A stretch of DNA of 43,925 nt from positions 1-43,925 of the IMG/VR virus record IMGVR_UViG_3300000116_000044; one strand, 5' to 3'. Of the stretch, positions 4,193 to 38,676 are shown piece by piece. A program made the position numbers and the translations under genes. Every line of letters begins with the position of its first letter. Positions within the stretch are counted from its first letter, which is position 1. Source of the DNA: a virus. A model generated the notes under the pieces. The model did not search any database, was not told the DNA's origin, and worked only from the letters and a program-made list of their open reading frames with translations.

Positions 4193-4940
4193 GTTGTTTC
4201 TCCAATTCTCTAATTCGTGCCACACCCTTCTCTCTTATTTCATAAGGGTTGATAGCCTCGAAGTCACCATGTTCATACTTAGACTTAACTAGAGCCCAAG
4301 GAAACGCAGACTTGGTAATCTTTTTTGTTGAATATAATAGCATAGGTGTTCTCACATATCTTGCAATCCACGCAGTCGATCCGTGATAACCTACAGCCAA
4401 AAATGCCTTCTTATATTTATCAACCGCATCTCCAATGGCATCGGTGTAGTCACAATGGACAACATCCATGCCCCACTTTGTTTGAATAAGGTTTTCAATT
4501 TGTCTCCATTTGTCGAGTCCTACAGGATCCTTCCATTGCTTTCCAGGATCATACTCTTCGAATTGTTGTTTATGTGATGCTGTTGTATTGAGTACAACAT
4601 ATGGTTTACTGATGGTAAGATTCTTAATTCTGGACCACCACAAGTTATGATAATTAGATTCAGGATCATAGTTGCTGTGGTTGTAGTCTATCTCTTTACC
4701 AAATGATTGTTTAAGATGAACTTGGTGATAGTTAACTGGTTTGCATATAGACCACAAGTACTTGAATCGTGAATCTAATGTATCTGCATCTTCTGGTTTA
4801 AACTTCTCACCTCTCTTATGCATCCAATGCATATGTAAGGTAACATCATCACAATTCTTCTGCGCCATATTATGAGCATAACAAAGTGGCGAGATTATGT
4901 CTCCATAACCTATCTTGCCCTTCCAATTAATTGTTATCAT
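4137..4940 (-). CDS. Putative glycosyltransferase, heptosyltransferase-like (GT-B)
   Basis: ATG 4940 overlaps the stop of the IscA-like gene as ATGA and gives 267 aa. The N-terminus ITINWKGKIGYGDIISPLCYAHNMA resembles the first Rossmann unit of GT9-type enzymes. The later AFLAVGYHGSTAWIARYVRTP resembles the segment that in this group contacts the donor sugar. The match is by pattern only, so the family is uncertain. Context (two glycosyltransferase genes downstream) supports a role in glycan assembly. Confidence 0.45.
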   Translation of the reverse strand: MITINWKGKIGYGDIISPLCYAHNMAQKNCDDVTLHMHWMHKRGEKFKPEDADTLDSRFKYLWSICKPVNYHQVHLKQSFGKEIDYNHSNYDPESNYHNLWWSRIKNLTISKPYVVLNTTASHKQQFEEYDPGKQWKDPVGLDKWRQIENLIQTKWGMDVVHCDYTDAIGDAVDKYKKAFLAVGYHGSTAWIARYVRTPMLLYSTKKITKSAFPWALVKSKYEHGDFEAINPYEIREKGVARIRELEKQLEIYLNTPNIHRLRGKRT

Positions 4941-5287
4941 ACGCCGAAGCTTTCTCCACATCCGCAACTAGAAGTTGCAACAGGGTTGATGACCTTTAGA
5001 AAAGATCCACCAAGCTCTTGGACATAATCAATTGTTGAACCAAGGACATGCATCTCACTAACTATATCAACTATCAAAAATATTTCTCTCATGTCAGATG
5101 GATCATGACCAATACTTAGCTTGTAATCTGAAGGGTCTGGGTCGTCTATAAAGTCCCACTTATATTGGAACCCTGTACATCCCCCACCTTCTACACCAAA
5201 CCACACATACTCCTTACCACTATTGATAGCTGTATTTTGCAGATAGTTTTTTGCATTGTCTGTTAGATTAATTGGACTTGCTACCAT
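4937..5287 (-). CDS. A-type Fe-S carrier protein (IscA/ErpA/HesB family)
   Basis: This 116-aa protein has the three conserved cysteines of A-type carriers: C37 in GGGCTGFQY, and C108 and C110 in SCGCGESF near the C-terminus. The length is typical. A-type carriers receive Fe-S clusters from IscU/SufBCD and deliver them to apo-enzymes. The ATG at 5287 has an upstream GGGAGG. The gene follows directly after the tmRNA and may share its promoter. The window encodes eight radical SAM enzymes, which are obvious cluster clients. The exact subfamily (IscA, SufA or ErpA) cannot be decided. Confidence 0.9.
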   Translation of the reverse strand: MVASPINLTDNAKNYLQNTAINSGKEYVWFGVEGGGCTGFQYKWDFIDDPDPSDYKLSIGHDPSDMREIFLIVDIVSEMHVLGSTIDYVQELGGSFLKVINPVATSSCGCGESFGV

Positions 5288-5308
5288 ACCTTTCCTCCCA
5301 AATTAGTT

Positions 5309-5640
5309 GGAGGTTTCTGTTGCCAGGTACCTCCGGACCCCGATTAATTATGCTGCAAGAGCAAAATTATCAGATGCTATATTATCGTTAGCATTTACTA
5401 TGTTTGATCTATTAAGCGATCAACCTTGTGACTCCGTATTCCTATTACCAACCTGTCGATCCTATTTCGACCCCATCAAAAACATACTAGCTCCAGGGAG
5501 ACCACTGTGCACGTCCCTCCCAACTGTATTAACGGCTACCCCAGTGTATATTACCGGTGTCGTCAACTGGTCGGCGCCCAGATTTGCTAGTATGCTTTTG
5601 GTGGAGTCGATGGGTACTGCCCCCATGTCCAGAATTGTGT
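5309..5640 (-). ncRNA. ssrA: tmRNA, circularly permuted two-piece form
   Basis: On the minus strand the acceptor half comes first. A T arm (ATGGG, 7-nt loop GGCAGTA, CCCAT; 5626-5610) is followed by CGACTCC, discriminator A (5602) and CCA (5601-5599). After a 124-nt spacer the coding half starts with GGGGTCG (5474-5468). This pairs over 7 bp with CGACTCC (one G-T) and is followed by the tmRNA-like GGATCGACAGG. A TTGATC/GATCAA stem (PK1-like) and ATAGTA precede the tag frame. That frame is GCT at 5392-5390 to TAA at 5350-5348, encoding ANDNIASDNFALAA; an AAT just before may be the resume codon. A GGAGGT/ACCTCC hairpin (5309-5334) closes the coding half. Ends are approximate. It should rescue stalled ribosomes and tag proteins for proteolysis. 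Confidence 0.9.
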
Positions 5641-5665
5641 TCAGTCCACCTCAACATCACTATCT

Positions 5666-5696
5666 ATTTATACACCGTATACTATGCAAAGTCAAC
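5666..5696 (-). promoter_or_regulatory. tmRNA promoter: sigma70-type with T4-late box
   Basis: TTGACT (5696-5691), a 17-nt spacer and TATAAA (5673-5668) form a near-consensus host promoter. The same -10 reads TATAAATA (5673-5666), the T4 late consensus. The -35 lies at the 3' end of the upstream oxygenase-like gene. The expected start of transcription is about 5660, just ahead of the acceptor half of the tmRNA. Confidence 0.7.
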
Positions 5697-6719
5697 AAGT
5701 AATCCTTCATGAAACATTTCTACTGGATGCATCTTTCCATAAAATTCATTCTGTGTCCATGATTGATCTTCCTCGTTGTAATCGAACCAAGGACTCACAC
5801 CCAAAATAATATTGGTTCTTTTGGATATTTCTCCTTTTTTTCTTATAACAGCATGCGGTTGTCCCGTATCAAAATGATACATATAGCCAGGATGCATAAG
5901 CATTTGTTCGTCTTCGGTTGCTATGTATGCTGTTTGATCCAAATACAAAGGAATGTTAATACGAAAGTTCATATAGAAGGATTCGTCACGATGCCAATGC
6001 AAATCACCAGACTTCATCTCTACAATACGGCCACGAACTATTGTTCTAGGTATCTGACTGAACACTTCCCCAAGGTAACCAGATTCACAAGCCGGAGTCA
6101 ATCTGTTAAATCCGAGAGCATCGCTATAGGTGTTCTTACCGGTTTGGTTCTTTGCGGCTGGATTATACTTCCACTGATGATAATACGCTCTCTCTTTTGA
6201 CCATACATCATGGGTGATGATATCTTTACTTCTTAAAAAGTCCCATGCGTGACCAGCTCCGTGATTGTTTACTTTGTCAAAGAACTCGACACGCAAGTCT
6301 TTTATATTGACCTGTTCAAATATCTCATTGCCTCTTTTGCCAGCATACATCTCTGGGGGAAGATTGAACTTCCTGTTACCTAGTGTCTGGCAGTTAATGT
6401 TGATATCTGATTGACGGAAGTCTGGGTTGTATGTAATAGATAGGCCACCAAGTCTTTGGCTACGGAGATCTGATGATCCGTATCCCTCACCAAAGTTTGC
6501 TATTAAGAATCCGTGCCACCCATACATACTAAATGCAGCCTCTACAGCGGTCTGCAAATTGCTGACAGGCAACTTGCATTCCAATCTGTATATTTTATGT
6601 GGCCATGCCCAGGCTCTGGTTACGTTGTTGACTCTTTCTTCAATATCAGTTTCTCGTCTGATGAAAGAGTCAACTGTATCACAGTCTGGGATATCTTTTT
6701 TATAAAACTTAAAACCCAT
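5682..6719 (-). CDS. 2OG-Fe(II) oxygenase-like protein (Asp/Asn hydroxylase type)
   Basis: The protein has 345 aa from ATG 6719. That ATG overlaps the 3' end of the upstream gene by 11 nt; longer readings start inside that gene. The C-terminal third has the double-stranded beta-helix signature: H243-x-D245 in DLHWHRDESF, then NFRINIPLYL, then HPGYMYHFDTGQPHAV with distal H289, and R301 as possible 2-oxoglutarate anchor. This matches the aspartyl/asparaginyl hydroxylase-type cupins. The first 230 residues have no recognised domain. Substrate unknown. Confidence 0.65.
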   Translation of the reverse strand: MGFKFYKKDIPDCDTVDSFIRRETDIEERVNNVTRAWAWPHKIYRLECKLPVSNLQTAVEAAFSMYGWHGFLIANFGEGYGSSDLRSQRLGGLSITYNPDFRQSDININCQTLGNRKFNLPPEMYAGKRGNEIFEQVNIKDLRVEFFDKVNNHGAGHAWDFLRSKDIITHDVWSKERAYYHQWKYNPAAKNQTGKNTYSDALGFNRLTPACESGYLGEVFSQIPRTIVRGRIVEMKSGDLHWHRDESFYMNFRINIPLYLDQTAYIATEDEQMLMHPGYMYHFDTGQPHAVIRKKGEISKRTNIILGVSPWFDYNEEDQSWTQNEFYGKMHPVEMFHEGLLVDFA

Positions 6720-17003: not shown

Positions 17004-17877
17004 TCATTATCTCCGGGTAAATATGTTCTGCCCAATCAATATGAGCTTGTTCTCCAAGATGCCAATACGTCTGGCTTTTTGGTGCATGGCCTTTAACCTC
17101 AGTACACCACCTATAGTAATTAAAATGTTTGTCCATAGGCTTGTAATAATATTTATCATCTATAGTATAATAAATCTTTTGATTGCCCACAAAAGGAGGA
17201 AACGTAATGTCTTGATATGGCTTAGGAGGGTTTGATAGATGAGTATCATAATAATTCTCTATCGCATTGAACATATAATATTTGTATGGAGATATTGCCA
17301 TCATACTCTGTATAGCATAAATGTAGGCTGCAAGTCTGTTAGCAGCAATTACATCATCTGCCCAAACATATGCCATATCAAATGCCTTACGTATCTCTTT
17401 GTCTTTAAGCATAAGTGGATTAGTACCAACAGTTGCTGGAATGTATTTGTTGTCTGCTCGTGCACCATAATCACCAGCTTGTTTCCACTCATTTTCATCT
17501 TCTTGTTTGTATCTCATATCAAGTCTATTCAAACTAGTCCATCCTATCAGAAAGAAGTAATTATAGTCTTCTCTTATAGGAGCATAGTAACCATATCCTG
17601 ATTCTATGTCGCTCATGATTGTACAGAACTGATCAAATATTCTATGGTTACTACCACCACACTGTGCATAGTTTAAATGTTGATAATTCCATTTCTCTGC
17701 AATCTTAGCACCGTAAGATAACTGTCTCTGCTCATCACTATCACCAACACCTAGAGTCTCACTACCAGCTGTATGACTACAACCAAGAGATATAAGTACA
17801 CCCTTGTAGCTATCATATCCCTTCCAGCTAGATTTATTAGCTTCGTATATGTGATCAAATGGGTCTACTTCAGACAT
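16981..17877 (-). CDS. SGNH-like hydrolase family protein
   Basis: This 298-aa protein has a candidate nucleophile S34 in ISLGCSHTAGSE, followed by CGGSNHRI as the GGxN-like block. A C-terminal HLGEQAHIDWAEHI segment supplies a possible Asp/His. This looks like the SGNH/GDSL esterase-acyltransferase group found in phage glycan gene sets. It overlaps the first radical SAM gene by 8 nt, so it is in the same operon. It could deacylate or acylate the cluster product. Confidence 0.6.
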   Translation of the reverse strand: MSEVDPFDHIYEANKSSWKGYDSYKGVLISLGCSHTAGSETLGVGDSDEQRQLSYGAKIAEKWNYQHLNYAQCGGSNHRIFDQFCTIMSDIESGYGYYAPIREDYNYFFLIGWTSLNRLDMRYKQEDENEWKQAGDYGARADNKYIPATVGTNPLMLKDKEIRKAFDMAYVWADDVIAANRLAAYIYAIQSMMAISPYKYYMFNAIENYYDTHLSNPPKPYQDITFPPFVGNQKIYYTIDDKYYYKPMDKHFNYYRWCTEVKGHAPKSQTYWHLGEQAHIDWAEHIYPEIMNAYPDLA

Positions 17878-19228
17878 ACTGACTCATCCATGGTAAGTAA
17901 TCGCTTCCTTTTAACTTTCTAAATTTATCAGATGCTCTCTGAACATCTAAGAATTGGTCCCACCTATGAGGGTCACGGTCTTCCATAATAATTTTTGCTA
18001 GGTTATTTAGGTTGTTGAGATTATCTTGTTCCCAACTATTCTCTATTGTACCCTTAACTCGATTATAAGTCAACTCTATTTGTTTTACTGCTTGGTGTTT
18101 CAACTCAGTAGGTAGATGGCGGATATGGTAGTACCTAGGGAAATCAACAATGTTAATATGAGGAAGTATGTTAATATAACCGTGAGGAGCCCTGGCTTCT
18201 GTATCGAAATAGTGAAATTTCTGATATTGATTCCTCGAAAACTCATACACTTCGCCGATGTCTAAGATGTTAAGCATACTTACTGTTGTATGCAACTGCA
18301 CATTGATATGCTTAACCTCTTTACACCTTTGTCTTAGCTTGTCGAAGTTCTTCTCAATCACTGACCATTTACTAGGATGCCTTATATAGTATGCTTTGTC
18401 ACCCACTGCATCTACACTTATACCAAGATTAATGTGCTCAAAGTGTGACCAAAGATCAATCAAGGCATTGGGTATTGTAGTTCCATTTGATGTATATTGT
18501 AATGTTTTATTCTTTGCCCATCCCTTGTTTATGATATGCTTCAACCACTCATAGTGTTCCTTTACAACTAGTGGCTCTCCACCAAGGAAGTTAATTGTTC
18601 TTATCTGACCAAGTATAGGATCAAAGAATCTTTCTCTGAATGCTTTTACAAACCAGGGCTCTGCTCTACCTTTCTTTAAGTAAGGAATGTATTCTGGTTT
18701 ATGTTCTTGATGAGGTATGACTTGAGCTTCTTCTATCCAGTTATGACTACTCCATGGATTACAGGTTTTACATTGTAAGTTGCACACATTACCAAGAGTA
18801 ACATCTAAGTATGATATATGCTCCATGTCTATCATCACGCCATCTTTTTCTTGGATAGAGTCTTCATGTATAAGATGCTTATGAGTTTCGTTTGCATCCA
18901 TTCTATATGAGTATCCACCTTGGTCCTCAACACCAAAACATCTCTCACACTCAGCTGGCCTTCGGTTCTTCTTCAGCTTCTCTCTAAGATGGCACAACAC
19001 AGGATCATTAAGAAGTTCTTTAACATGTCCCATTGCTTGTATCTGTGGTTGGAATCCAAACTTACCATTGTCCATTTTAATTGGCCAAGTATTGATATAG
19101 TCCAAGTCATGGGAGTTGATTACACCAGGAGCTCCTGATATAGACTTAAATGTTTTTGCAACACAGCATGGTCTCACTCTACCAAAGTTGTTTACACTCA
19201 AACCGTTCATAGCATAATAACAATGCAT
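17870..19228 (-). CDS. Radical SAM protein, SPASM/twitch-like part first (array member 1)
   Basis: This 452-aa protein has the radical SAM cluster motif C149-x3-C153-x2-C156 (GNVCNLQCKTC) and GGEP at 216-219. Ahead of the core lies an auxiliary-cluster-like part: C3, C21-C22 (RPCC) and C94/C97 (CERC). So the SPASM/twitch-like Cys set precedes the core instead of following it. Radical SAM enzymes use a [4Fe-4S] cluster to cleave S-adenosylmethionine and start radical chemistry. It is the last of seven consecutive paralogues. Substrate unknown. Confidence 0.88.
   Translation of the reverse strand: MHCYYAMNGLSVNNFGRVRPCCVAKTFKSISGAPGVINSHDLDYINTWPIKMDNGKFGFQPQIQAMGHVKELLNDPVLCHLREKLKKNRRPAECERCFGVEDQGGYSYRMDANETHKHLIHEDSIQEKDGVMIDMEHISYLDVTLGNVCNLQCKTCNPWSSHNWIEEAQVIPHQEHKPEYIPYLKKGRAEPWFVKAFRERFFDPILGQIRTINFLGGEPLVVKEHYEWLKHIINKGWAKNKTLQYTSNGTTIPNALIDLWSHFEHINLGISVDAVGDKAYYIRHPSKWSVIEKNFDKLRQRCKEVKHINVQLHTTVSMLNILDIGEVYEFSRNQYQKFHYFDTEARAPHGYINILPHINIVDFPRYYHIRHLPTELKHQAVKQIELTYNRVKGTIENSWEQDNLNNLNNLAKIIMEDRDPHRWDQFLDVQRASDKFRKLKGSDYLPWMSQYV
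18045..18073 (-). promoter_or_regulatory. Sigma70-type promoter inside a radical SAM gene
   Basis: TTGACT (18073-18068), a 17-nt spacer and TACAAT (18050-18045) lie in the 3' end of the 17870-19228 gene. The site can feed the SGNH, glutaredoxin and GT4 genes independently of the radical SAM string. Confidence 0.5.
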
Positions 19229-20190
19229 TATATTGGACCTTTTGCAATATTGAAATCAGCAGCGCAATGGCAATGATGCTTTGGACAAATTATTGGTTTG
19301 ATATTACTTGAGTCAAACTCGCCAGCTATATTACCAACTATTGGTCCTACACCACAGCTGGCTTGTCTTATTCTTCCATCTGGATATATGTGGAGACTGT
19401 CTTGTATGTTACACTCCCAACCTTTCCAGAAATTCCAACCATTTTGCATTATCCTATTTGACTCAATTGGTACCTCATCACCATCAACAATCATATTTGC
19501 ATAGGCGTAATTTGGATCTTTGAATATAGTAAAATTAGTTGTCTTTACATCAGGATTAGATTTGAAAAAGTTTATCTGATATTCCTCATCGTAATGATAT
19601 TCTTCTGTGTCTGGTCTAAGAGAATCTAACACTGGAACATAGTCAATGATGTGGTTTGTACACTCTTTAAGTCTCTCAGTCATAGCAATACATTGGTCCC
19701 ACTTATCTTTGTGCATCATTACTCTGGCACACATATATGCTATTCTTGTACACAACCAATCATAGTTCTCAAAATATCTGTCATCTTTTGTAAATTCTGC
19801 ATGATAGCTTGCTACTATATCATCAAACAAAGTGTAGTTTTCTTTCCACCACTTCAGACCTCTTGATAGGTTTGTATTGACGCCCACACAGCTTCCAGGG
19901 AACTCTACACGCTCTCTAAACAACTCTATAGTTGGTATGAGTCCTGGCCATAGAGTAGGCTCACCACCGCTTAGAAACAGTTTAAAGTAGCGATAACCAC
20001 GATCCTGATACAGATCTATGATATAGTCTAATGTTGTGAGGATCTTATCAATATCATCTTCGTGTTTGAATCTACCACCCCAGTTTCCCTCATTACAATA
20101 CGTGCAACGAAAGTTACAGAAGTCATTAACTTGCCAAACAATACTCAACCACTTTTCTTTAGCAGGTACAATTTTAGTCAGGGTGGGCAT
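19228..20190 (-). CDS. Radical SAM protein, conventional order (array member 2)
   Basis: This is the shortest member (320 aa). The core motif C25-x3-C29-x2-C32 (DFCNFRCTYC) is near the N-terminus and GGEP is at 75-78. Cys/His-rich segments in the C-terminal region (IRQASCGVG and CPKHHCHCAADF) are in the normal SPASM/twitch position. It therefore differs in order from its neighbours. The start and stop overlap adjacent genes by 17 and 1 nt. Substrate unknown. Confidence 0.88.
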   Translation of the reverse strand: MPTLTKIVPAKEKWLSIVWQVNDFCNFRCTYCNEGNWGGRFKHEDDIDKILTTLDYIIDLYQDRGYRYFKLFLSGGEPTLWPGLIPTIELFRERVEFPGSCVGVNTNLSRGLKWWKENYTLFDDIVASYHAEFTKDDRYFENYDWLCTRIAYMCARVMMHKDKWDQCIAMTERLKECTNHIIDYVPVLDSLRPDTEEYHYDEEYQINFFKSNPDVKTTNFTIFKDPNYAYANMIVDGDEVPIESNRIMQNGWNFWKGWECNIQDSLHIYPDGRIRQASCGVGPIVGNIAGEFDSSNIKPIICPKHHCHCAADFNIAKGPI

Positions 20191-21385
20191 GTTGAATCAC
20201 TTTAACCATATCTGGAAATACATCCTCAAACTTGTACTTCCTATACTTGTCAAGGAAGTGCACATACGTTCTCATTTTATTAATAAGCTCGCCCTTATAT
20301 TTATTTGTATTTTTTGTGTAGTTAATTATGTTACGTATTGCACCTTCGTACTGAGTATCAAAAGCTTCTAGTTGTTTTACAACATCCATTCTCATTTCTT
20401 CTGGCCACACACAACTGTGAATATAATCTGGACTCTCGAGAAAAATAGGTACAAAGTCTACTCTACGAGTTTGATTCCGCTCAATCCATCTTACTACTTT
20501 TGTTACATCGTATACATTCCATGCCTGATATACAAAGTATACTTTCAGTAAACACTTCTCAGTTAATTGTTGAGCTTTTGCAAAGTTCTTTTCTACCGCC
20601 TTCCAATTGGTTGGATATCTTACATATGAGTTAGTCATTTCATATCCATCAATACTCATCTGGACCTCTGACTCATCAAAGAAGTCTAATTTATCATAGA
20701 ATTCATCTGGCCAATTAGTGAGATTTGTTGTCCAGCATACATAACATTCATTATTACCAACTTCTACTAACTTGTCTAGGACTTCTCTGTTCTTTTGGAT
20801 GAGAGTTGGTTCTCCTCCCGTAAGATACAATCTTTTGAGATTAGGCGCCACTCTATCAATAAATTTGTCGAACATTGGTGTATTAAACCAATCATAATCA
20901 AACTGATCAACACTATCCAACTCATGTCGCCATACGTTCTGTAACCATTGAGGAACCTTTTCATTATCAAGTATCCTTTTTCTTTCGTTATATAATTGAT
21001 CAGAACTTACAGCCCAGCAACCACTGCACTTCAAGTTACACACATTGCCAAGTCTCAGTTCAAGTAGATTAGGATCAAACACTGGATCTAAACTATCAGT
21101 GTGAAAGTTTTTGTTTGCCCATTGTCTTGAACTTTCCAATCCTTTCTCTTCATGCTCGTAGCATCTATGACACGCATCAATACGTTCACCTTGTAACATT
21201 GCTTTTCTAACATCTGTCATATACTTACCATGCCATATATCATCAAACTCTTGGTGACCTAGTATAGCAAACTTATCATCAATTGTTATGTAATCTTCTG
21301 TATAGATGTTACAGCATAGCTTACATCTACCATCAGTATTAGTATGAATATTTGTCCATGGGTATATGCAAAATGTCTCAGCCAC
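20174..21385 (-). CDS. Radical SAM protein, SPASM/twitch-like part first (array member 3)
   Basis: I choose GTG 21385 (MAETFCIYPW...), preceded by GGAAG and overlapping the upstream stop by 8 nt; an upstream ATG at 21403 would lengthen the overlap. The auxiliary-type Cys come first: C6, C21, C24-C25 and C72/C75. The core motif C116-x3-C120-x2-C123 (NVCNLKCSGC) and GGEP at 190-193 follow. 403 aa. FCIYPW...GRCKLCC followed by a WHGKYMTDVRKAMLQGE segment repeats the layout of the other members. Confidence 0.88.
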   Translation of the reverse strand: MAETFCIYPWTNIHTNTDGRCKLCCNIYTEDYITIDDKFAILGHQEFDDIWHGKYMTDVRKAMLQGERIDACHRCYEHEEKGLESSRQWANKNFHTDSLDPVFDPNLLELRLGNVCNLKCSGCWAVSSDQLYNERKRILDNEKVPQWLQNVWRHELDSVDQFDYDWFNTPMFDKFIDRVAPNLKRLYLTGGEPTLIQKNREVLDKLVEVGNNECYVCWTTNLTNWPDEFYDKLDFFDESEVQMSIDGYEMTNSYVRYPTNWKAVEKNFAKAQQLTEKCLLKVYFVYQAWNVYDVTKVVRWIERNQTRRVDFVPIFLESPDYIHSCVWPEEMRMDVVKQLEAFDTQYEGAIRNIINYTKNTNKYKGELINKMRTYVHFLDKYRKYKFEDVFPDMVKVIQHAHPD

Positions 21386-22634
21386 GATTCTTCCAAAAAT
21401 CATTCTTATAATAATATTCTTTTAACTTACTAAACTCTTTATAAGTTTCAAAGAAATTTTCACTACGGATGTGATCGAGTTGATTTACCTTATCAAAGAA
21501 TACAGTCAAAAGACTAGTCTTGTCTTCTTCCCACATAAAGTGTATTATACTTTCATAGTCGTGTATTATTCTATCTGTGTGAGGATATTGTTCAAGCTCT
21601 TTCATCCAATCTCTGTACTTTTCTTCTACTTCTCTTTTTAATTTTCTTGGTAGACATTGGATTCTATAAAACTCAGGATCCAACAAAGGATTTAATCTAC
21701 AATTTTGAGGTTTGAGTAAACCAAGATTAACCCATTCTCTGTGAAAGTCAACTACATTGTATGAATTGAATATACTAACAGTAGGCGTAATCCAAAAGTC
21801 AACATCAGGACACTCTTTCATCATATCCTTTCTATTTTGAACAACAACATCCCATTTTATATTTTTTCTTAGATACTCACCTTGTGAATGATTACCATCT
21901 AGGCTAGCTGCAACAACAACATGATCAAATGCTTTCCAGTATTCAAAGATAGACTTTTTCTTGAATCTCATATTAGTAAAGTTGGTTGTATAATTCAACC
22001 TAACATCTGTCATCTTATGATGGAGCCAATAGTCAAGAACTCTATAATGTTCTTCTGTTATAATAGCTTCACCACCAGCCCAATACACCTTCTCAACATC
22101 AAGTAACATTGGCTCGAGTTCTTTGAAGAACGTATCCATATCCTTACCAACCTTTAGTAGTTGAGGTATACCTGGATCACCATGCATCTTGACATGATCA
22201 TCATACCAGCTTGTACTAAAATTAGGTCCACAAGTACGACATCTTAAATTACAAAGATTTGAGAAACGAATATCAAGGTATGCCATGTTGACCAGGCCTG
22301 CGCTTCCATCTTCTTCTGTTTCTTCTACCTTCCACCAGTGATCAGCAAACTCCTTGTTGCTTGATATTCTCAATGTCTGCAAACCTGATTTTTCTTGCTC
22401 GTAACATCTCCTACACTCTTGACTTTCTCTTCCTTCAAGCATAGCATTTCTAAGAGCTTTCATCTTATCACTGTTCCACAGCTCTTGTATGGTATTATCA
22501 TGAGAGCTTCCAATTGGCATTCTGGAATCTGCTAAACAACAAGGATACGTATCCCCATTGGGCCACATATGCATATGAGTCCACGGTAACATACAAAATG
22601 TTTTATTGTTTAGAAATAAGTCCTTGTCACTCAT
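21378..22634 (-). CDS. Radical SAM protein, SPASM/twitch-like part first (array member 4)
   Basis: This 418-aa protein has C14 (FCMLPW), C32-C33 (YPCC) and C74/C77 (CRRC), with ELWNSDKMKALRNAMLEG between. The core motif C128-x3-C132-x2-C135 (NLCNLRCRTC) follows. The usual GGEP reads GGEA (187-190). The part before the core matches the Cys layout of a SPASM/twitch domain that normally sits C-terminal. Overlaps both neighbours by 8 nt. Confidence 0.9.
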   Translation of the reverse strand: MSDKDLFLNNKTFCMLPWTHMHMWPNGDTYPCCLADSRMPIGSSHDNTIQELWNSDKMKALRNAMLEGRESQECRRCYEQEKSGLQTLRISSNKEFADHWWKVEETEEDGSAGLVNMAYLDIRFSNLCNLRCRTCGPNFSTSWYDDHVKMHGDPGIPQLLKVGKDMDTFFKELEPMLLDVEKVYWAGGEAIITEEHYRVLDYWLHHKMTDVRLNYTTNFTNMRFKKKSIFEYWKAFDHVVVAASLDGNHSQGEYLRKNIKWDVVVQNRKDMMKECPDVDFWITPTVSIFNSYNVVDFHREWVNLGLLKPQNCRLNPLLDPEFYRIQCLPRKLKREVEEKYRDWMKELEQYPHTDRIIHDYESIIHFMWEEDKTSLLTVFFDKVNQLDHIRSENFFETYKEFSKLKEYYYKNDFWKNRG

Positions 22635-23841
22635 GTCGTAACATCTGTTTGATAATTGGAATGTTTTCCGTCATCTCCTTGTATACGTGTCTGAATCTTG
22701 AATGAAGATTGTGAACTAATCGTGACCGATCCCACGTATCCTTCTCCTTCATAAAAGATATGATTTGAGGGAATCCCCATCTGGGATGAGTCATCCGTCC
22801 AGAGTAGTTCTCTAGGTGTATTTCTAGGAATTGTTTTATCTCCTCTTTCATGTCTACTGGTATAGACTGTATATTAAACTCTGGTGGGCTGAATGCTATA
22901 TTATATGACATTATTGAAGTCTCGTCAACGATTCCTTTGTGTTCAAGATAGAGATGAAACTTAGGAATGTGATCAACATTCAACACACTTATTACACTAT
23001 CGACGCCTAAGTTAATATTATCAATACCTTTGAGTGATAGTAAATTAGCTTCAACTTGATCCCACTTAGTACCAAGTCTTACTAGCTCTGCTCTTTCTCC
23101 ATACGCATCGATGCTTGCTCCTACTTCAACCTTCTTAAACATCCTCCACTTATCAACTACGTTGTACTTGTAAAAGTTTAGATTGCTCATATTAGTATTG
23201 TATCTAAGAGTCATATCTGTCAGACCCTGTTGTATCAAGTAGTCGAGTATCTTATAGTGTTCAGGCATCATTAATGGCTCACCACCAGTGAAATATATCT
23301 CATCAACAGTTGGTAGGTGTTCCTTGATCTGATCCCACACTGACTCTTTTGTATTGTCTTCTAGTTTAAGATTTGGTCCTTTTGGTCCAATGATATATTT
23401 GTTCCATCCTGTACTCCAAGAAGGACCACAAGTTAAACATGCAAAGTTACATTCTGTACTAAACCTTATATTGATAGCTTTGAAATGAAACTCTTCCATG
23501 CTACCATCTTCAGCTGTTAAGTCTACAAGATTGAAATGTTTCTTGAATAGATTATTGTTATGTTTTCTATATGAAGATCCTCCTGCATCATCAAACTGCC
23601 AACATCTGGTGCAAGCATCATTTCTCTTGCCTTCCATCATATCTTTTCTGAGTTTATTCCACTCATCAGAATGATATATTTCTGCCAATGTGTTGTCTTT
23701 AAGACTACCTTTTAATTCTGGTATTCCTGGATATGGCACAGCCGTACAACATGGAAACACATTGCCATCAGGCTCTGCGTATAGATGCATCCATGGAAGT
23801 ATACAAAAGTTTTCGTTATCAGATGGGTTCTTTATAGCCAC
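22627..23841 (-). CDS. Radical SAM protein, SPASM/twitch-like part first (array member 5)
   Basis: This 404-aa protein has C13 (FCILPW), C31-C32 (FPCC) and C77/C80 (CTRC) in the N-terminal part. The core has C131-x3-C135-x2-C138 (ECNFACLTC) and GGEP at 186-189. It is clearly a close paralogue of the next gene upstream, sharing MHLYAEPDG and the SWSTGWNKY stretch after the core Cys. Overlaps neighbours by 8 and 23 nt. Confidence 0.9.
   Translation of the reverse strand: MAIKNPSDNENFCILPWMHLYAEPDGNVFPCCTAVPYPGIPELKGSLKDNTLAEIYHSDEWNKLRKDMMEGKRNDACTRCWQFDDAGGSSYRKHNNNLFKKHFNLVDLTAEDGSMEEFHFKAINIRFSTECNFACLTCGPSWSTGWNKYIIGPKGPNLKLEDNTKESVWDQIKEHLPTVDEIYFTGGEPLMMPEHYKILDYLIQQGLTDMTLRYNTNMSNLNFYKYNVVDKWRMFKKVEVGASIDAYGERAELVRLGTKWDQVEANLLSLKGIDNINLGVDSVISVLNVDHIPKFHLYLEHKGIVDETSIMSYNIAFSPPEFNIQSIPVDMKEEIKQFLEIHLENYSGRMTHPRWGFPQIISFMKEKDTWDRSRLVHNLHSRFRHVYKEMTENIPIIKQMLRHE
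22900..22928 (-). promoter_or_regulatory. Possible sigma70-type promoter inside the radical SAM array
   Basis: TTGACG (22928-22923), a 17-nt spacer and a perfect TATAAT (22905-22900) lie in the 3' third of the 22627-23841 gene, about 270 nt before the next gene. The weaker -35 makes it less certain than the others. Confidence 0.4.
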
Positions 23842-25180
23842 CAGATTCTCCTATATCTTTATTCCATCTATCAAATGGATGATCAATATCATTTATCATT
23901 CTTACTAGAGGAATGTGTTCAAGAACAGCATCCTTTGCAAACTTGAGCGTGCTGTTTAAATGTTCAGAGAGCCTACCAGGCTTATATGTATCACGAGCAT
24001 ACATATAATCAATACACGTTTGCCATCCTGGGTTCTGATATCTTGCTTTAATATTTACTGGTAATTTTGACCATTCTAACTTTAAGAACTCTTCAATAGC
24101 TGGCTTCATGTCTGCAGGAATAGATGTGAGACTCAAAGGCTCAGGTTCATGAGCAATGTTAGCTACTGTGTTGGTATTGTACTTCACCAAGCCTTCATTA
24201 TGAAAGTATCTAACCATCTTTGGTAAGTGATGTATGTTAAAAATACTAACAACTGAATCAATAGAGTATCTTATGTTATCATACTTCTGTATTTCTTTGA
24301 TATTGTTATACACATCTTTCCATTTTGTATTCCATCTTATAATCTCTACATCTCTCTCAACCCCATCAATACTAAGTCCAAGATCAATCTCTTTAAACTT
24401 TGGCCAATAATCCATAGCATGTTGTTTACCAAACTTCAACCTGCTTAAATTTGTATTGTATTGCAACTCAACTTTGTCTTGGAGATTATTATCAACCAGA
24501 TATTCTAGTATCTTCCAATGCGCAGGCATCATTAGTGGTTCACCACCGGTGAAATATATCTTTTCTACAGTATGCAAATAAGGTTGCAATTCTTCCCATA
24601 TAGGATACTTTGAGTTGTCATTTAAATCTAAAAGTTTTGTTCTGGTTGGATCTTTCCACAACCAAGGAGACTTATCATACCATGAGGTACTCCATTGAGC
24701 ATTACAAGTTAGACATGCCATATTACAATGATTGCTAAATCTGACATTTAAGAACTTTAGATCGAGCTTCTTTAAACTTCCATCCTCATTTGTATTATCT
24801 ATAGCATCAACAAACTGACCAAAGTGTCGTCTACCATATTGTCTGTAGCTATCATTACCAACATCTTCAAATCTCTTACATCTTGTACATGTACTTGGTA
24901 ATTCATCTCCATTCAACATATCTAATCTGAGTTTATTGAAATTAGGAGTATTCAAAGCCTCTAATATAGACTTGTCTTTAATATTAGATGTAGCAAAGTG
25001 AGGATCAGTCCTTGTACCAGGCTCACCCATTTCACCATCCCACAAAGGTGTTGCTGTACAACATGGAAATATTGTACCATCTGGCTCCGCGTATAAATGA
25101 ACCCACGGTAGAATACAAAAACTCTTACGGTTGTTTAAGAGGTCTTGTTTTTGAGCTTGGCTTTTGCTAACGACTGACAC
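23819..25180 (-). CDS. Radical SAM protein, SPASM/twitch-like part first (array member 6)
   Basis: GTG 25180 is the best available start for this 453-aa protein; it overlaps the upstream gene by 46 nt. Cys in order: C22 (FCILPW), C40-C41 (FPCC) and C98/C101 (CTRC). The core has C152-x3-C156-x2-C159 (HCNMACLTC) and GGEP at 212-215. FCILPWVHLYAEPDG is nearly identical to member 5, suggesting duplication and divergence. Confidence 0.88.
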   Translation of the reverse strand: MSVVSKSQAQKQDLLNNRKSFCILPWVHLYAEPDGTIFPCCTATPLWDGEMGEPGTRTDPHFATSNIKDKSILEALNTPNFNKLRLDMLNGDELPSTCTRCKRFEDVGNDSYRQYGRRHFGQFVDAIDNTNEDGSLKKLDLKFLNVRFSNHCNMACLTCNAQWSTSWYDKSPWLWKDPTRTKLLDLNDNSKYPIWEELQPYLHTVEKIYFTGGEPLMMPAHWKILEYLVDNNLQDKVELQYNTNLSRLKFGKQHAMDYWPKFKEIDLGLSIDGVERDVEIIRWNTKWKDVYNNIKEIQKYDNIRYSIDSVVSIFNIHHLPKMVRYFHNEGLVKYNTNTVANIAHEPEPLSLTSIPADMKPAIEEFLKLEWSKLPVNIKARYQNPGWQTCIDYMYARDTYKPGRLSEHLNSTLKFAKDAVLEHIPLVRMINDIDHPFDRWNKDIGESGGYKEPI

Positions 25181-26538
25181 TGGTCCATGAACTCCTTCAT
25201 TTCTGGAAATGTGCTGTAGAAATTTGTGTTTCTTCTTCTATCAAGTTCATTAAACCAATTGTAAAAATCAATACGTCCTTCAAGCAATCTCTCAGTTGAA
25301 TAGTTTGTCTGTTGCATATAGTCCACAACTCTCTTAAACTTCCAATACTCAAGATCACTGAACTTAGTTGGATCATTTTCTTTTATATTCTCTTTCATAA
25401 AATGAAGAGCATCATTCATATAGTGCATAAACTGATTCTTAGGTAGTAGATTCATATCATACTGTAATGGTTCTTTAAGATACGGTGTATCAAAACGAAC
25501 ACGATGTAGCTGTCCTGCCCCATTTGTTACATCAGGGTATTGCTCTCTCCACTCTAATATTTTCTTTAATAGACTCTTGAATGTAGTGACCGTCAATATA
25601 TTAAAAGTCATCATAAAGGTGATGTTGGCATTAGTCTCCGTTAAGTATGTATGAAAATTTTCTTCCCATACTTTTAAATCTAGACCTGTTCTTATATACT
25701 CAGCTCTTGAGCCCCATGTATCTAATGAGGTGAATAATTTAAATCTTTTAATCTTGTTTTCATCTTCAAACTCTTTTACAAACTTAGATAATCTCTTAAC
25801 TATTCTATTAGTCATACCAAGATTACTGTTTGTATTGATCTCAAGATCTGGCAGTGGATACTTAGAGATGTTCTCAAACAACTTCCAAGTACTTTGTTGA
25901 AGTAATGGTTCACCACCAGTTATCCTCAATATACTAAGAGTCTTTCTTACTTCAGGCCACCACTCCCACCATGCATCCACATATGGGTTCTCTTCTTCTC
26001 GTTTGAATAGTTTGATCCAATCAATATCCAATCTATGGTTTTCAACCATATCATATGGACCAAACTTCTCTATCTCTTTCCAGTAACTACTGCTTGCTTT
26101 TGGATGACAGTATCCGCATTTGAACTGACACTCATTACCAAAACTTATCTCAATATACTCTGGATTTATATGATGATCGTATCCATGTTTAACTATCTCA
26201 TCCACTCTCTCTTCTCTATGAATAGATGCATTACGTTCATGTCTATCACTGACATACTCTTCACCTAGAGCCTCAACATTCCAACAATACTGACAGCCCT
26301 TAGGTTTCTTACCCTCAAGCATTAACTTACGTTCTTGTTTCTTTTGTTCAGTATTATGTAGAGCGGAAGCATCCCGCTTGAGTTCATCAAGCGGGATGTG
26401 ATGTGGCTTTGGATGATAACAGCTATGTGTCTCACCAGTTTGTAGATAAATTGTTACGTGATGAAACTTAGCCAAACAAAATGTTGGGCTAACTTGAGCA
26501 GCTAACTTATCTTTGATGAGACTAATGCGTTCATCCAT
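25135..26538 (-). CDS. Radical SAM protein, divergent N-terminal part (array member 7)
   Basis: This 467-aa protein has the core C137-x3-C141-x2-C144 (NECQFKCGYC) and GGEP at 208-211. The N-terminal part keeps C21, C40 and C82/C85 (CQYC), but the PCC motif is replaced by a single Cys (HSCYHP), so an auxiliary cluster, if any, has altered ligands. It is the first radical SAM gene transcribed after the carbamoyltransferase, which it overlaps by 8 nt. Confidence 0.88.
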   Translation of the reverse strand: MDERISLIKDKLAAQVSPTFCLAKFHHVTIYLQTGETHSCYHPKPHHIPLDELKRDASALHNTEQKKQERKLMLEGKKPKGCQYCWNVEALGEEYVSDRHERNASIHREERVDEIVKHGYDHHINPEYIEISFGNECQFKCGYCHPKASSSYWKEIEKFGPYDMVENHRLDIDWIKLFKREEENPYVDAWWEWWPEVRKTLSILRITGGEPLLQQSTWKLFENISKYPLPDLEINTNSNLGMTNRIVKRLSKFVKEFEDENKIKRFKLFTSLDTWGSRAEYIRTGLDLKVWEENFHTYLTETNANITFMMTFNILTVTTFKSLLKKILEWREQYPDVTNGAGQLHRVRFDTPYLKEPLQYDMNLLPKNQFMHYMNDALHFMKENIKENDPTKFSDLEYWKFKRVVDYMQQTNYSTERLLEGRIDFYNWFNELDRRRNTNFYSTFPEMKEFMDQCQSLAKAKLKNKTS

Positions 26539-27952
26539 TGCACACTACTTCTACTCCATATTCTTCTGCAAATGCTTTTGCATCAGCACTATCATTGACC
26601 ATAGGCTGACCTTTTATATTTAAACTTGTATTCAATAATGCAGGGCATCCGGTTCTTTCATACCATGCTTCAAGTATATGTCTCAATGGTGAATTAATCC
26701 AGGTAGACCTATCGACTGTATGTACTCTAGCTGATCCATCCTCATGCATAGTAGCAAGAAACGACTTATCTCTTGCTTTCACTACATTCTGCATATAGCT
26801 GTAGTCATGTTGTCTGAATGTTCTAAAATAATTATCAGCATGTTCAGATAATATAGATGGAGCAAACGGTCTGAACTTCTGACGTTTCTTTATATCGTTA
26901 ACTCTATCTTTGTTTTCTGCTGTTCTTGGATCACATAATAAACTTCTATTACCTAGAGCTCTAGGACCAAATTCTGCTTTGCCTGCTGCAATACCAACCG
27001 GCTCTCCTTTCTCTAATAGATCTACAACATGCTTTATTTGATCAACATTCAACATTGGTAACTTGTAACCAAGAAATGAATGTTCATATTTTATCTTTTG
27101 GCCATGTACTAATGCAGCTGCACCAAGAGATGATCCTGCATCTCCAGGATTAGGAAACACATAGTGTTGTTTTCCTCTCAGCACTAATCCATTTGCAACA
27201 CTATTAAGCGCAACACCTCCACCATATACCACAGGAAGTTTTTTGTCTAACTTGGTTACAAACGTCTTTAGTATATTCTCTACTAGCTTCTGTGCGTTGT
27301 ATGCTATGTCCACATCTTCGTATTCTGACAGTAGACCTCTCATACCTCTGTGAAGATTCTTCTTCAACATCATACGTCTAAGCTCTTCATACAGTACTCT
27401 GTTGGGTTTGCCATATGCTGCCATACCCATAGTAATATATTCATCCTCCATAGGCTTGAGTCCTACTCTAGCTGTGACGGCAGAATAGAATAAACCTATA
27501 GAGGTGGGATACTTTAAAGATTTTAGTTTTGTATACCGTGCTACATCATTAACATATTCACAGTACCATACACTAACAGTATCCCACTCACCTATAGCAT
27601 CTACTACAAGCGCATTTGCATTACTGAATTCAGAACATTGGAATGCGGCAGCAGCATGAGAAAGATGATGGTTAAAGCAATGATCGTAATCGTAGTTAAG
27701 ATGACGTGCTTTAAAAGCTGACTTCCATTGCCCCGCATACGCTTGACGGGTCCGTTTGATAAAAGGCCGCTCATAGAAAGCAATTGTATCAGCGTCATAC
27801 TTTTTGACATAATCTTTTAACTCCTGACAAACGTATTTGTCATTCTTCACTTTGGAGAACCTTTCGCTGTGACCAGCAAAAAGTATCTCACTTCCATCTA
27901 AGACAGTTACAGCGGCATCATGAAATCCTTCACTGAAGCCGAGTACCCTCAT
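26531..27952 (-). CDS. Carbamoyltransferase (NodU/CmcH/TobZ family)
   Basis: This 473-aa protein has the two-part family layout. The Kae1-like N-terminal domain contains GFHDAA (9-14), HHLSHAAAAF (95-104), VVDAIGEWDT and VYGGGVALNSVANG. The C-terminal YrdC-like part contains EFGPRALGNRSLLCDPR, KRQKFRPFAPSIL and LNTSLNIKGQPMV. Members transfer a carbamoyl group from carbamoyl phosphate, through an adenylate, to hydroxyls of sugars or antibiotics. Somewhat shorter than the usual 550-600 aa. The gene leads the radical SAM string, so the end product likely carries a carbamate. Confidence 0.92.
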   Translation of the reverse strand: MRVLGFSEGFHDAAVTVLDGSEILFAGHSERFSKVKNDKYVCQELKDYVKKYDADTIAFYERPFIKRTRQAYAGQWKSAFKARHLNYDYDHCFNHHLSHAAAAFQCSEFSNANALVVDAIGEWDTVSVWYCEYVNDVARYTKLKSLKYPTSIGLFYSAVTARVGLKPMEDEYITMGMAAYGKPNRVLYEELRRMMLKKNLHRGMRGLLSEYEDVDIAYNAQKLVENILKTFVTKLDKKLPVVYGGGVALNSVANGLVLRGKQHYVFPNPGDAGSSLGAAALVHGQKIKYEHSFLGYKLPMLNVDQIKHVVDLLEKGEPVGIAAGKAEFGPRALGNRSLLCDPRTAENKDRVNDIKKRQKFRPFAPSILSEHADNYFRTFRQHDYSYMQNVVKARDKSFLATMHEDGSARVHTVDRSTWINSPLRHILEAWYERTGCPALLNTSLNIKGQPMVNDSADAKAFAEEYGVEVVCNG

Positions 27953-28203
27953 GCTGCATCTGCTTCTGCTTCCACTTCACCATCAACGTCTGCATTAGGA
28001 TCCCTAGCACCAGTCAATGTAGCTAAAATAACAACAATCAATGGATCCCGTTCTTTCTTCAACCAGACATTAAGATAGTTTTGCTCAAACTCATCAAGCT
28101 CCATGCCATCGCAGTTGTATCGGATTGTTGTATCAATCATTGCAGCCATCTTAAATAGCCTTTGATCGATATGACTCATATCTGTATCGTCTTTTGCCAT
28201 CAT
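27949..28203 (-). CDS. Small phage protein, unknown (84 aa)
   Basis: ATG 28203 (with another ATG at 28200) follows AAGGAG. The product has a helical middle (MAAMIDTTIRYNCDGMELDEFEQNYLNVWL) and an acidic Ala-rich tail. The stop overlaps the carbamoyltransferase start (ATGA). It is the first gene behind the promoter at 28232-28260. Confidence 0.65.
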   Translation of the reverse strand: MMAKDDTDMSHIDQRLFKMAAMIDTTIRYNCDGMELDEFEQNYLNVWLKKERDPLIVVILATLTGARDPNADVDGEVEAEADAA

Positions 28204-28231
28204 ATACTCCTTATCAAGCAATTATAATTAT

Positions 28232-28260
28232 ATAATACTATTAACGTGGTATTTAGTCAA
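28232..28260 (-). promoter_or_regulatory. Sigma70-type promoter for the carbamoyltransferase-radical SAM string
   Basis: TTGACT (28260-28255) begins 1 nt after the upstream stop codon. It has a 17-nt spacer and TATTAT (28237-28232). It lies 29 nt before ATG 28203, in one of the few true intergenic gaps. It heads about 13 kb of overlapping genes. Confidence 0.75.
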
Positions 28261-28914
28261 CTATTTTATACCAGGGTCTTCCATATTGTTTTGATCAAAT
28301 CCCCACTGCCTTTCTTTACACTGCCAACAATGTATAGTTTCTGTTTGTTGATAACATCTACCTTCATCAAACTCAGTGCATGTATGTGATGCTTCAAATA
28401 ACCATTCCAACTCATGCCTCAATACAAGATCAATTGTTTCAGCTTTGTTCAATTCAATGAAAGGTATCTCAAATTTACTGTACTTATCTACAGCCTTGTT
28501 AGCTACTGACCTGTCTGGGGCTGCGGTAGTTGACATAAGAGATTGAGGAGGATTAGAAGTATTCCCGCTGTACAGTACATCCAGGTCGGTGATATAATCA
28601 TCAAGAATGTGTCTAAATGCAGTTTTACCCGTAATACCCAATGAAGCAATTTCATTTTCCTTTCCACCTTTGACTACGTGTTGTTCCCATTTGTTTCTTA
28701 ATTTGCTTTTCTTTATTATATCTGCTGAATGCTTTAGACTGCCATCAGGCTTGTCCATTGTAAAGATTACAAAAGTGCAATCAGTGCAAGCAATATCAAG
28801 CAAGTTGAGTAAAAGACCTGAGTCCATACCCCCTGATAAGAGTATTCCAATCCTCTCTTCGTTCCTATAGGGTATTTGAACAATTCTATCATTCGATGAT
28901 TGGAGTGTCAACAA
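28261..28914 (-). CDS. PP-loop ATPase, QueC-like with four-Cys site
   Basis: This 217-aa protein has the PP-loop SGGMDS (27-32), which binds ATP to adenylate a carboxyl or carbonyl. Near the C-terminus C179, C187, C196 and C199 (HTCTEFDEGRC...HCWQCKERQWGF) resemble the zinc site of QueC/ExsB. It could be a QueC-like nitrile or amide-forming enzyme, or an asparagine-synthase-like amidotransferase module that works with the adjacent PP-loop gene. QueD and QueE partners are not obvious, so preQ0 synthesis is unproven. Confidence 0.7.
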   Translation of the reverse strand: MLTLQSSNDRIVQIPYRNEERIGILLSGGMDSGLLLNLLDIACTDCTFVIFTMDKPDGSLKHSADIIKKSKLRNKWEQHVVKGGKENEIASLGITGKTAFRHILDDYITDLDVLYSGNTSNPPQSLMSTTAAPDRSVANKAVDKYSKFEIPFIELNKAETIDLVLRHELEWLFEASHTCTEFDEGRCYQQTETIHCWQCKERQWGFDQNNMEDPGIK

Positions 28915-29934: not shown

Positions 29935-29962
29935 GACACTCTCCTTTGTTACAAGTTAAGTG

Positions 29963-30004
29963 CGTTCCTTCGCTTTCGCTACTTCCGCCCTATATGGGTG
30001 AACG
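29963..30004 (-). other. Structured leader downstream of late promoter
   Basis: On the minus strand CGTTC (30004-30000) pairs with GAACG (29967-29963). Inside are a CCC/GGG hairpin with an ATATA loop and a GC-GAAA-GC tetraloop. The element lies between the late box and GTG 29934 and is GC-rich compared with its surroundings. It could stabilise the late mRNA or regulate translation. Confidence 0.35.
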
Positions 30005-30010
30005 TATATC

Positions 30011-30018
30011 TATTTATA
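30011..30018 (-). promoter_or_regulatory. T4-type late promoter
   Basis: TATAAATA starts 1 nt after the stop codon of the upstream dioxygenase gene and lies in a real intergenic gap of about 85 nt. It should drive the PP-loop gene pair late in infection, via gp55 and gp33. Confidence 0.65.
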
Positions 30019-38647: not shown

Positions 38648-38676
38648 AGTATACATCAAAAACGAAACAGGGTCAA
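38648..38676 (-). promoter_or_regulatory. Sigma70-type promoter for the glycoside hydrolase pair
   Basis: TTGACC (38676-38671), a 17-nt spacer and TATACT (38653-38648), followed by AAGGTATGAG. The whole element is nearly the same as the leftward promoter at 7114-7142, a dispersed repeat within the phage. Confidence 0.85.

Follow-up and report, generated by a model that had tools for sequence, protein, structure and literature searches.

The permuted tmRNA gene of the window

The window analysed here is the whole 43,925-nucleotide stretch of virus record IMGVR_UViG_3300000116_000044, an incomplete genome. Rfam covariance models and ARAGORN identified an intact permuted tmRNA on the minus strand of positions 5305-5713. 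The alpha_tmRNA model (RF01849) matches 5713-5305 (-) with 130.9 bits (E = 1.3e-35; cut-off 50) and the tmRNA_permuted model (RF04321) matches 5661-5348 (-) with 108.1 bits (E = 2.6e-20; cut-off 47), both above the gathering score, and ARAGORN calls a permuted tmRNA (tmRNA*) at 5257-5691 with the tag ANDNIASDNFALAA. Taken together, the two E-values and the ARAGORN call put the match far beyond chance. The alpha_tmRNA score is well under those of the best cellular copies (250-312 bits among the matches listed).

Within this single gene the acceptor (tRNA-like 3') half lies 5' of the coding half. The acceptor half (5599-5661, minus strand), delimited by both Rfam models, ARAGORN and base pairing, contains the T arm (about 5630-5610), the 3' strand of the acceptor stem, CGACTCC (5609-5603), the discriminator A (5602) and an encoded CCA (5601-5599) at its end. 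It is followed by an intervening segment of 124 nt (5475-5598, minus strand), predicted to be removed on maturation. The coding half (5305-5474, minus strand; ARAGORN and Rfam), the exact 3' end of which is taken from the Rfam model, starts with the 5' strand of the acceptor stem, GGGGTCG (5474-5468), and continues with the D-arm region, the resume region, the tag reading frame and a 3' hairpin, CGGAGGTACCTGGCAACAGAAACCTCC (5309-5334, minus strand; ends approximate), which Rfam and comparison with cells show to be conserved in alpha tmRNAs. The tag frame (5348-5392, minus strand) runs from GCT to TAA, with an alanine resume codon first and a hydrophobic degron and stop last; it was called by ARAGORN and has homologous open tags in relatives. 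All seven acceptor pairs, G3-U70 included, form across the 124-nt segment.

An initial sequence-only reading had proposed a tmRNA with the acceptor half in front, halves complementary over 7 bp, a tag frame and stop near the 3' end, and the permuted arrangement of the Alphaproteobacteria and some cyanobacteria, here in a T4-like genome. Each of these parts was recovered on the minus strand, and gp32, gp59 and T4 RNase H are encoded in the window, where, with PhoH, they form the T4-like surroundings of the gene. That reading had also foreseen annotation as a spurious antisense ORF, and an ORF of 131 residues indeed occupies the plus strand at 5307-5702. The evidence supports the identification of the locus as a tmRNA gene of the phage that is circularly permuted, of alpha type and complete in its tag frame. 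The promoter at 5695-5665 and the additional ~98 nt between the halves, both described below, did not figure in the initial reading.

The next gene downstream (4937-5287, minus strand; Pfam PF01521) encodes an IscA-like Fe-S biosynthesis protein. The tmRNA-IscA adjacency is kept in the related loci L122-L130 and L138-L141, in which the identity of the IscA protein falls to 53%.

Conservation of the acceptor stem and the tag

The seven acceptor pairs form in all 78 distinct phage tmRNAs compared, without a single broken pair, although the sequence of the stem changes. At pair 4, 71 copies have G-C and six have C-G, pair 5 varies between G-C, T-A, C-G and others, and the two strands read GGGGTCG/CGACTCC in the window, GGGCCCG/CGGGTCC in L123 and GGGGGTG/CACCTCC in L128. 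G3-U70, the alanine identity pair, is invariant. This stem, with strands lying 124 nt apart and changes on both sides, is the strongest evidence in the sequence for a working gene. The tag frame is likewise open in all close relatives that ARAGORN called, with changed residues, e.g. ANDNFASDNLALAA and ANDNFASDDLALAA. These two observations argue against a relic, in which a host ssrA gene would have been picked up by imprecise excision or recombination and would now be inert, an origin for which there is some precedent, host ssrA being a common integration site and ssrA fragments being found in prophages (PMC9004378). A relic is extremely unlikely, also in view of the promoter and phylogeny described below, and the tmRNA is real, intact and, as judged from its sequence, probably functional.

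Like ordinary SsrA degrons, the window tag starts with ANDN and ends in ALAA. In this sample ALAA ends were far commoner among phage than among cellular tags (58 against 18 of about 97), and the median tag length was 14 residues in phages versus 12 in cells. The suggestion in the sequence-only reading that the phage redirects host proteolysis through a tag of its own is weakly supported at most: nothing about the window tag is unusual, though phage tags taken together tend to be longer and more often end in ALAA. It is also very unlikely that the RNA is a decoy that blocks host trans-translation, like the tag-less tmRNA-like RNA of mycobacteriophage DS6A (PMC11915505), which provides a phage precedent, since the full tag frame, resume region and stop are kept and the tags vary as working degrons do, mostly with ALAA ends.

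A dedicated promoter upstream of phage tmRNA genes

Comparison with relatives revealed a composite promoter, TTGACT-N17-TATAAATA, at 5665-5695 on the minus strand, its single occurrence in the window. It consists of sigma70-type -35 and -10 elements, of which the -10 doubles as the T4 late octamer; TATAAATA is equal to the T4 late promoter. A consensus promoter search returned nothing at 5665-5695 because TATAAA breaks its rule for position 6, and the motif was found through the relatives.

Of 77 phage tmRNAs, 56 have (T)ATAAATA, the octamer or its last seven bases, ahead of the T arm, 55 of them at a distance of 26-41 nt, against an expectation of 3.2% in the same contigs and none in 100 cellular tmRNA genes. 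A loose form, TTGANN-N15-19-TATANN, was found for 47 of the 77 (background 1.95%), with a spacer of 17 in 43. The strict form, TTGAYW-N17-TATAAATA, occurs 72 times in the phage loci: called tmRNAs follow 46 of these copies, and of the other 26 the majority stand upstream of an acceptor half that ARAGORN did not call. Most phage permuted tmRNAs thus bear a dedicated promoter, TTGACW-N17-TATAAATA, which in these contigs rarely occurs away from tmRNA genes. Its conservation in phages and its absence from cellular genes are further evidence against a relic.

In the cultured phage Melnitz, the corresponding site (TTGACA-N17-TATAAATA) was called an early promoter by its authors, who used TATAAAT as the late promoter form (PMC9004378); the site also matches the late octamer. 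Overlap of a host-type with a late promoter would permit expression throughout infection.

Relationship to known tmRNAs and origin of the phage copies

Two-piece phage tmRNAs are already known, and the window adds a further member of the class, not the first. A 2022 survey reported 133 unique phage tmRNAs, 53 of which were called two-piece by ARAGORN, 50 of these from marine or aquatic sources (PMC9004378), and 79 phage tmRNA sequences, whatever their form, are collected in a database from 2025 (PMC11915505). What is new here is the phage-side branch, the dedicated promoter, the longer intervening segments with the insertion in the window, and the nested genes found elsewhere.

Among the closest described systems is Melnitz (MZ577095-8), a Methylophilales phage that infects OM43 bacteria. 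This T4-like myovirus has a two-piece tmRNA (44732-45184 in MZ577095) beside a glutamine riboswitch (PMC9004378). Like the window, Melnitz is a T4-like marine myovirus with a permuted alpha-type tmRNA, a 14-residue tag ending in ALAA, a long intervening segment and the composite promoter. The two differ in the downstream gene, which is IscA in the window and another gene in Melnitz, and in the segment, which holds a 54-residue ORF in Melnitz and none in the window. In Melnitz the riboswitch directly follows the tmRNA (L151:2878-2926), whereas that of the window is about 24 kb away, so that the Melnitz-type unit is not present. The combination of tmRNA and riboswitch is rare in phages of the Melnitz group (PMC9004378).

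The Caulobacter-type two-piece tmRNA (RF01849/RF04321) resembles that of the window in the order of the halves, the acceptor stem with G3-U70, the T-arm and 3' hairpin sequences and the ANDN start of the tag. The phage copies differ from the alphaproteobacterial ones in forming a separate branch (in this sample), in the median lengths of the segment (87 versus 34 nt) and tag (14 versus 12 residues), and in the phage promoter. The tmRNAs of cluster C1 mycobacteriophages are also phage-encoded, but belong to other phages and hosts; the mycobacteriophage tmRNA is a standard one-piece gene.

In a maximum-likelihood tree of the tmRNA without its segment, a single branch parts 79 phage from 101 cellular sequences (SH-aLRT 87), and, after the addition of small-genome cells and a thinning of the others, 79 phage from 92 cellular sequences (SH-aLRT 93); these are quick trees of about 250 columns from a structure-free alignment, made without bootstrap, with a phage set drawn mostly through a single exact motif and with named SAR11 left out. 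The Melnitz tmRNA has been placed nearer to SAR11 (PMC9004378). Among 385 alphaproteobacterial genomes, the coding half of the window has no close match, only short conserved stretches, mostly of the 3' hairpin, and recent capture from a host was rejected on these grounds. The split in the trees and the lack of a close cellular match suggest an old phage lineage as opposed to repeated recent capture, and the separation from cells, in this sample, is again unfavourable to a relic. An IMG/VR motif scan returned at least 120 stretches, and most of those listed carry permuted tmRNAs.

In two genomes of the Ruegeria-phage type, a GOLLD RNA (RF02032) is located directly upstream of the permuted tmRNA (L152:856-1289 and L153:769-1232), and in one of the two a tRNA lies inside the GOLLD RNA.

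Proposed role in ribosome rescue

We consider it highly probable that a T4-like phage carries here a complete alpha-type permuted tmRNA gene which, with its own promoter and with host processing, charging and trans-translation, keeps ribosome rescue running. The minus strand would be transcribed from the promoter at 5695-5665, and the precursor would be cut by host tRNA-processing enzymes, with RNase P acting before G5474 and 3' maturation occurring at the CCA (5599). Removal of the 124-nt segment would leave two RNAs joined by the seven-pair acceptor stem, and G3-U70 would direct charging by the host alanyl-tRNA synthetase. The charged tmRNA, with SmpB and EF-Tu of the host, would then enter a stalled ribosome, add ANDNIASDNFALAA and free the ribosome, and the tagged protein would be degraded by host proteases such as ClpXP. 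In this way the phage could keep ribosome rescue going as the host genome and transcripts disappear.

The two-piece state of the window tmRNA and a role in late expression, both put forward in the initial reading, we infer from these features; processing, charging, trans-translation, timing and benefit are proposed by analogy with known tmRNAs. A search for SmpB found none in the window or two related contigs, each possibly a fragment, and host SmpB would therefore be needed. Rescue of ribosomes while infection proceeds, with SmpB supplied by the host, is the most likely role. The gene confirms that a complete RNA for ribosome rescue is carried by lytic T4-like phages and maintained by selection, which argues that the loss of stalled ribosomes limits infection.

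The intervening segment of the window

The segment of the window begins directly after the CCA with an outer stem of about 13 bp (AAAGCATACTAGC/GCTAGTATGTTTT). Alignment with L123, L126, L128 and L129, in which the segment is 24-26 nt in total, shows that the loop of this hairpin has an insertion of ~98 nt (5493-5588, minus strand; ends approximate) common to the window and its near twin L122 only.

The segment itself might be a functional structured RNA, such as a ribozyme, riboswitch or sRNA, freed by processing, and the entire segment does fold better than shuffles (z -1.7 to -2.7). This signal is driven by the outer stem, and the inner segment is no more structured than shuffles (z +0.79 in the window, +1.49 in L122). 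The search for a known ribozyme, riboswitch or other RNA in the segment gave no credible Rfam match besides the tmRNA at E values up to 5, and in 15 further phage loci no Rfam match at gathering scores fell inside the intervening segments. Between the window and L122, identity is 95% in the segment, compared with 99% for the rest of the tmRNA, and the insert is missing from the next-nearest relatives. A functional structured RNA is, on this evidence, unlikely.

Two other explanations of the insertion were rejected. For a coding segment, frame 2 is open in both the window and L122, but has no notable start preceded by a Shine-Dalgarno (SD) sequence, and the differences between the two alter amino acids; the longest SD-preceded ORF of the window segment is 16 residues (p = 0.22 versus shuffles), and the window tmRNA does not have a segment of the nested-gene type described below. 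For a mobile insertion, no similar sequence was present in 50,697 phage records, and among the phage loci compared the insertion is confined to the window and L122. The best reading of the insert, on sequence grounds, is a stretch under little constraint within a spacer that can be removed.

Putative nested small protein genes in other phages

Intervening segments are 8-247 nt long (median 87) in 79 ARAGORN-called phage copies, compared with a median of 34 and a maximum of 116 nt in 138 cellular copies (Mann-Whitney p = 2e-14). Most phage copies with more than a few segment nucleotides have an outer stem directly after the CCA. Of 60 phage segments with 60 nt or more, 15 contain an SD-preceded ORF longer than those of shuffles (p < 0.05); many of the 15 represent one family, so that this is not a count of independent events.

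Loci with putative nested small protein genes include L104, L030, L065, L045, L074, L120, L080, L094, L114 and L019. Family (a), MFKxYIxWSICAD..., comprises ten sequences with a median dN/dS of 0.13 (codons from the conserved Met). Family (b), MEIIWHILLTVC..., of 62 residues, is found in L043, L018 and L117 (dN/dS 0.11-0.24), and family (c), MDEVILWE..., in L013, L055 and L073 (dN/dS 0.06 for the sole unsaturated pair). Single cases (d) are L016 (73 residues) and L115 (41 residues), and the 54-residue ORF of the cultured Melnitz (L151) (e) has no gene annotation. These dN/dS values, of about 0.06-0.24, indicate that several of the nested ORFs are probably small protein genes under purifying selection. 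L015, the tmRNA of which is still above both Rfam cut-offs, has a segment of 499 nt (between 2526 and 3025, reverse complement). This segment contains two ORFs; comparison by eye shows KIPKYLSGxR in both the first of them and the nested ORF of Melnitz. The second, of 120 residues, is 53% identical over 83 residues to a relative at an ordinary Melnitz locus, so that in this case a nested and a stand-alone gene are homologous.

In families (a) and (b) the SD sequence is just after the CCA and the stop, TGA, is one base before GGGG, the predicted RNase P site. On balance, we lean towards a view of the permuted tmRNAs of marine phages as an old phage lineage with a dual-purpose promoter (host sigma70 and phage late), in which the segment would serve as a cargo site where inserts come and go. 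In several groups the cargo would be a real small protein gene with its stop beside the RNase P site, yielding the two-piece tmRNA and an mRNA from one transcript, and the 98-nt insertion of the window would be a non-coding instance. The putative protein genes between the tmRNA halves are a more surprising lead than the tmRNA of the window. If expressed, they would make the gap of a split RNA gene a new kind of site for a protein gene. These class-level results can be tested in culture, Melnitz being grown on OM43 and having both the tmRNA and the unannotated nested ORF.

Annotation pipelines overlook the nested ORFs as well as those tmRNAs that have the longest inserts. ARAGORN, as run, missed many permuted phage tmRNAs (L124, L125, L127, L130, L015, L018, L101, L115 and L117), some of them with the longest intervening segments, and published phage tmRNA counts are therefore probably too low.

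Other features of the window

The glutamine riboswitch of the window (RF01739, 49.9 bits), some 24 kb away from the tmRNA, is located at 29959-30006 (-) and is closely preceded by a copy of TATAAATA (30011-30018). An early-type promoter, TTGACC...ATGTATACT[AG]A, distinct from the tmRNA promoter, recurs at 38676, 37220, 35872 and 7142 (-). Radical SAM proteins, a carbamoyltransferase and a QueC-like protein are encoded in a cluster at 17870-28914 (-), which is probably a modification pathway.
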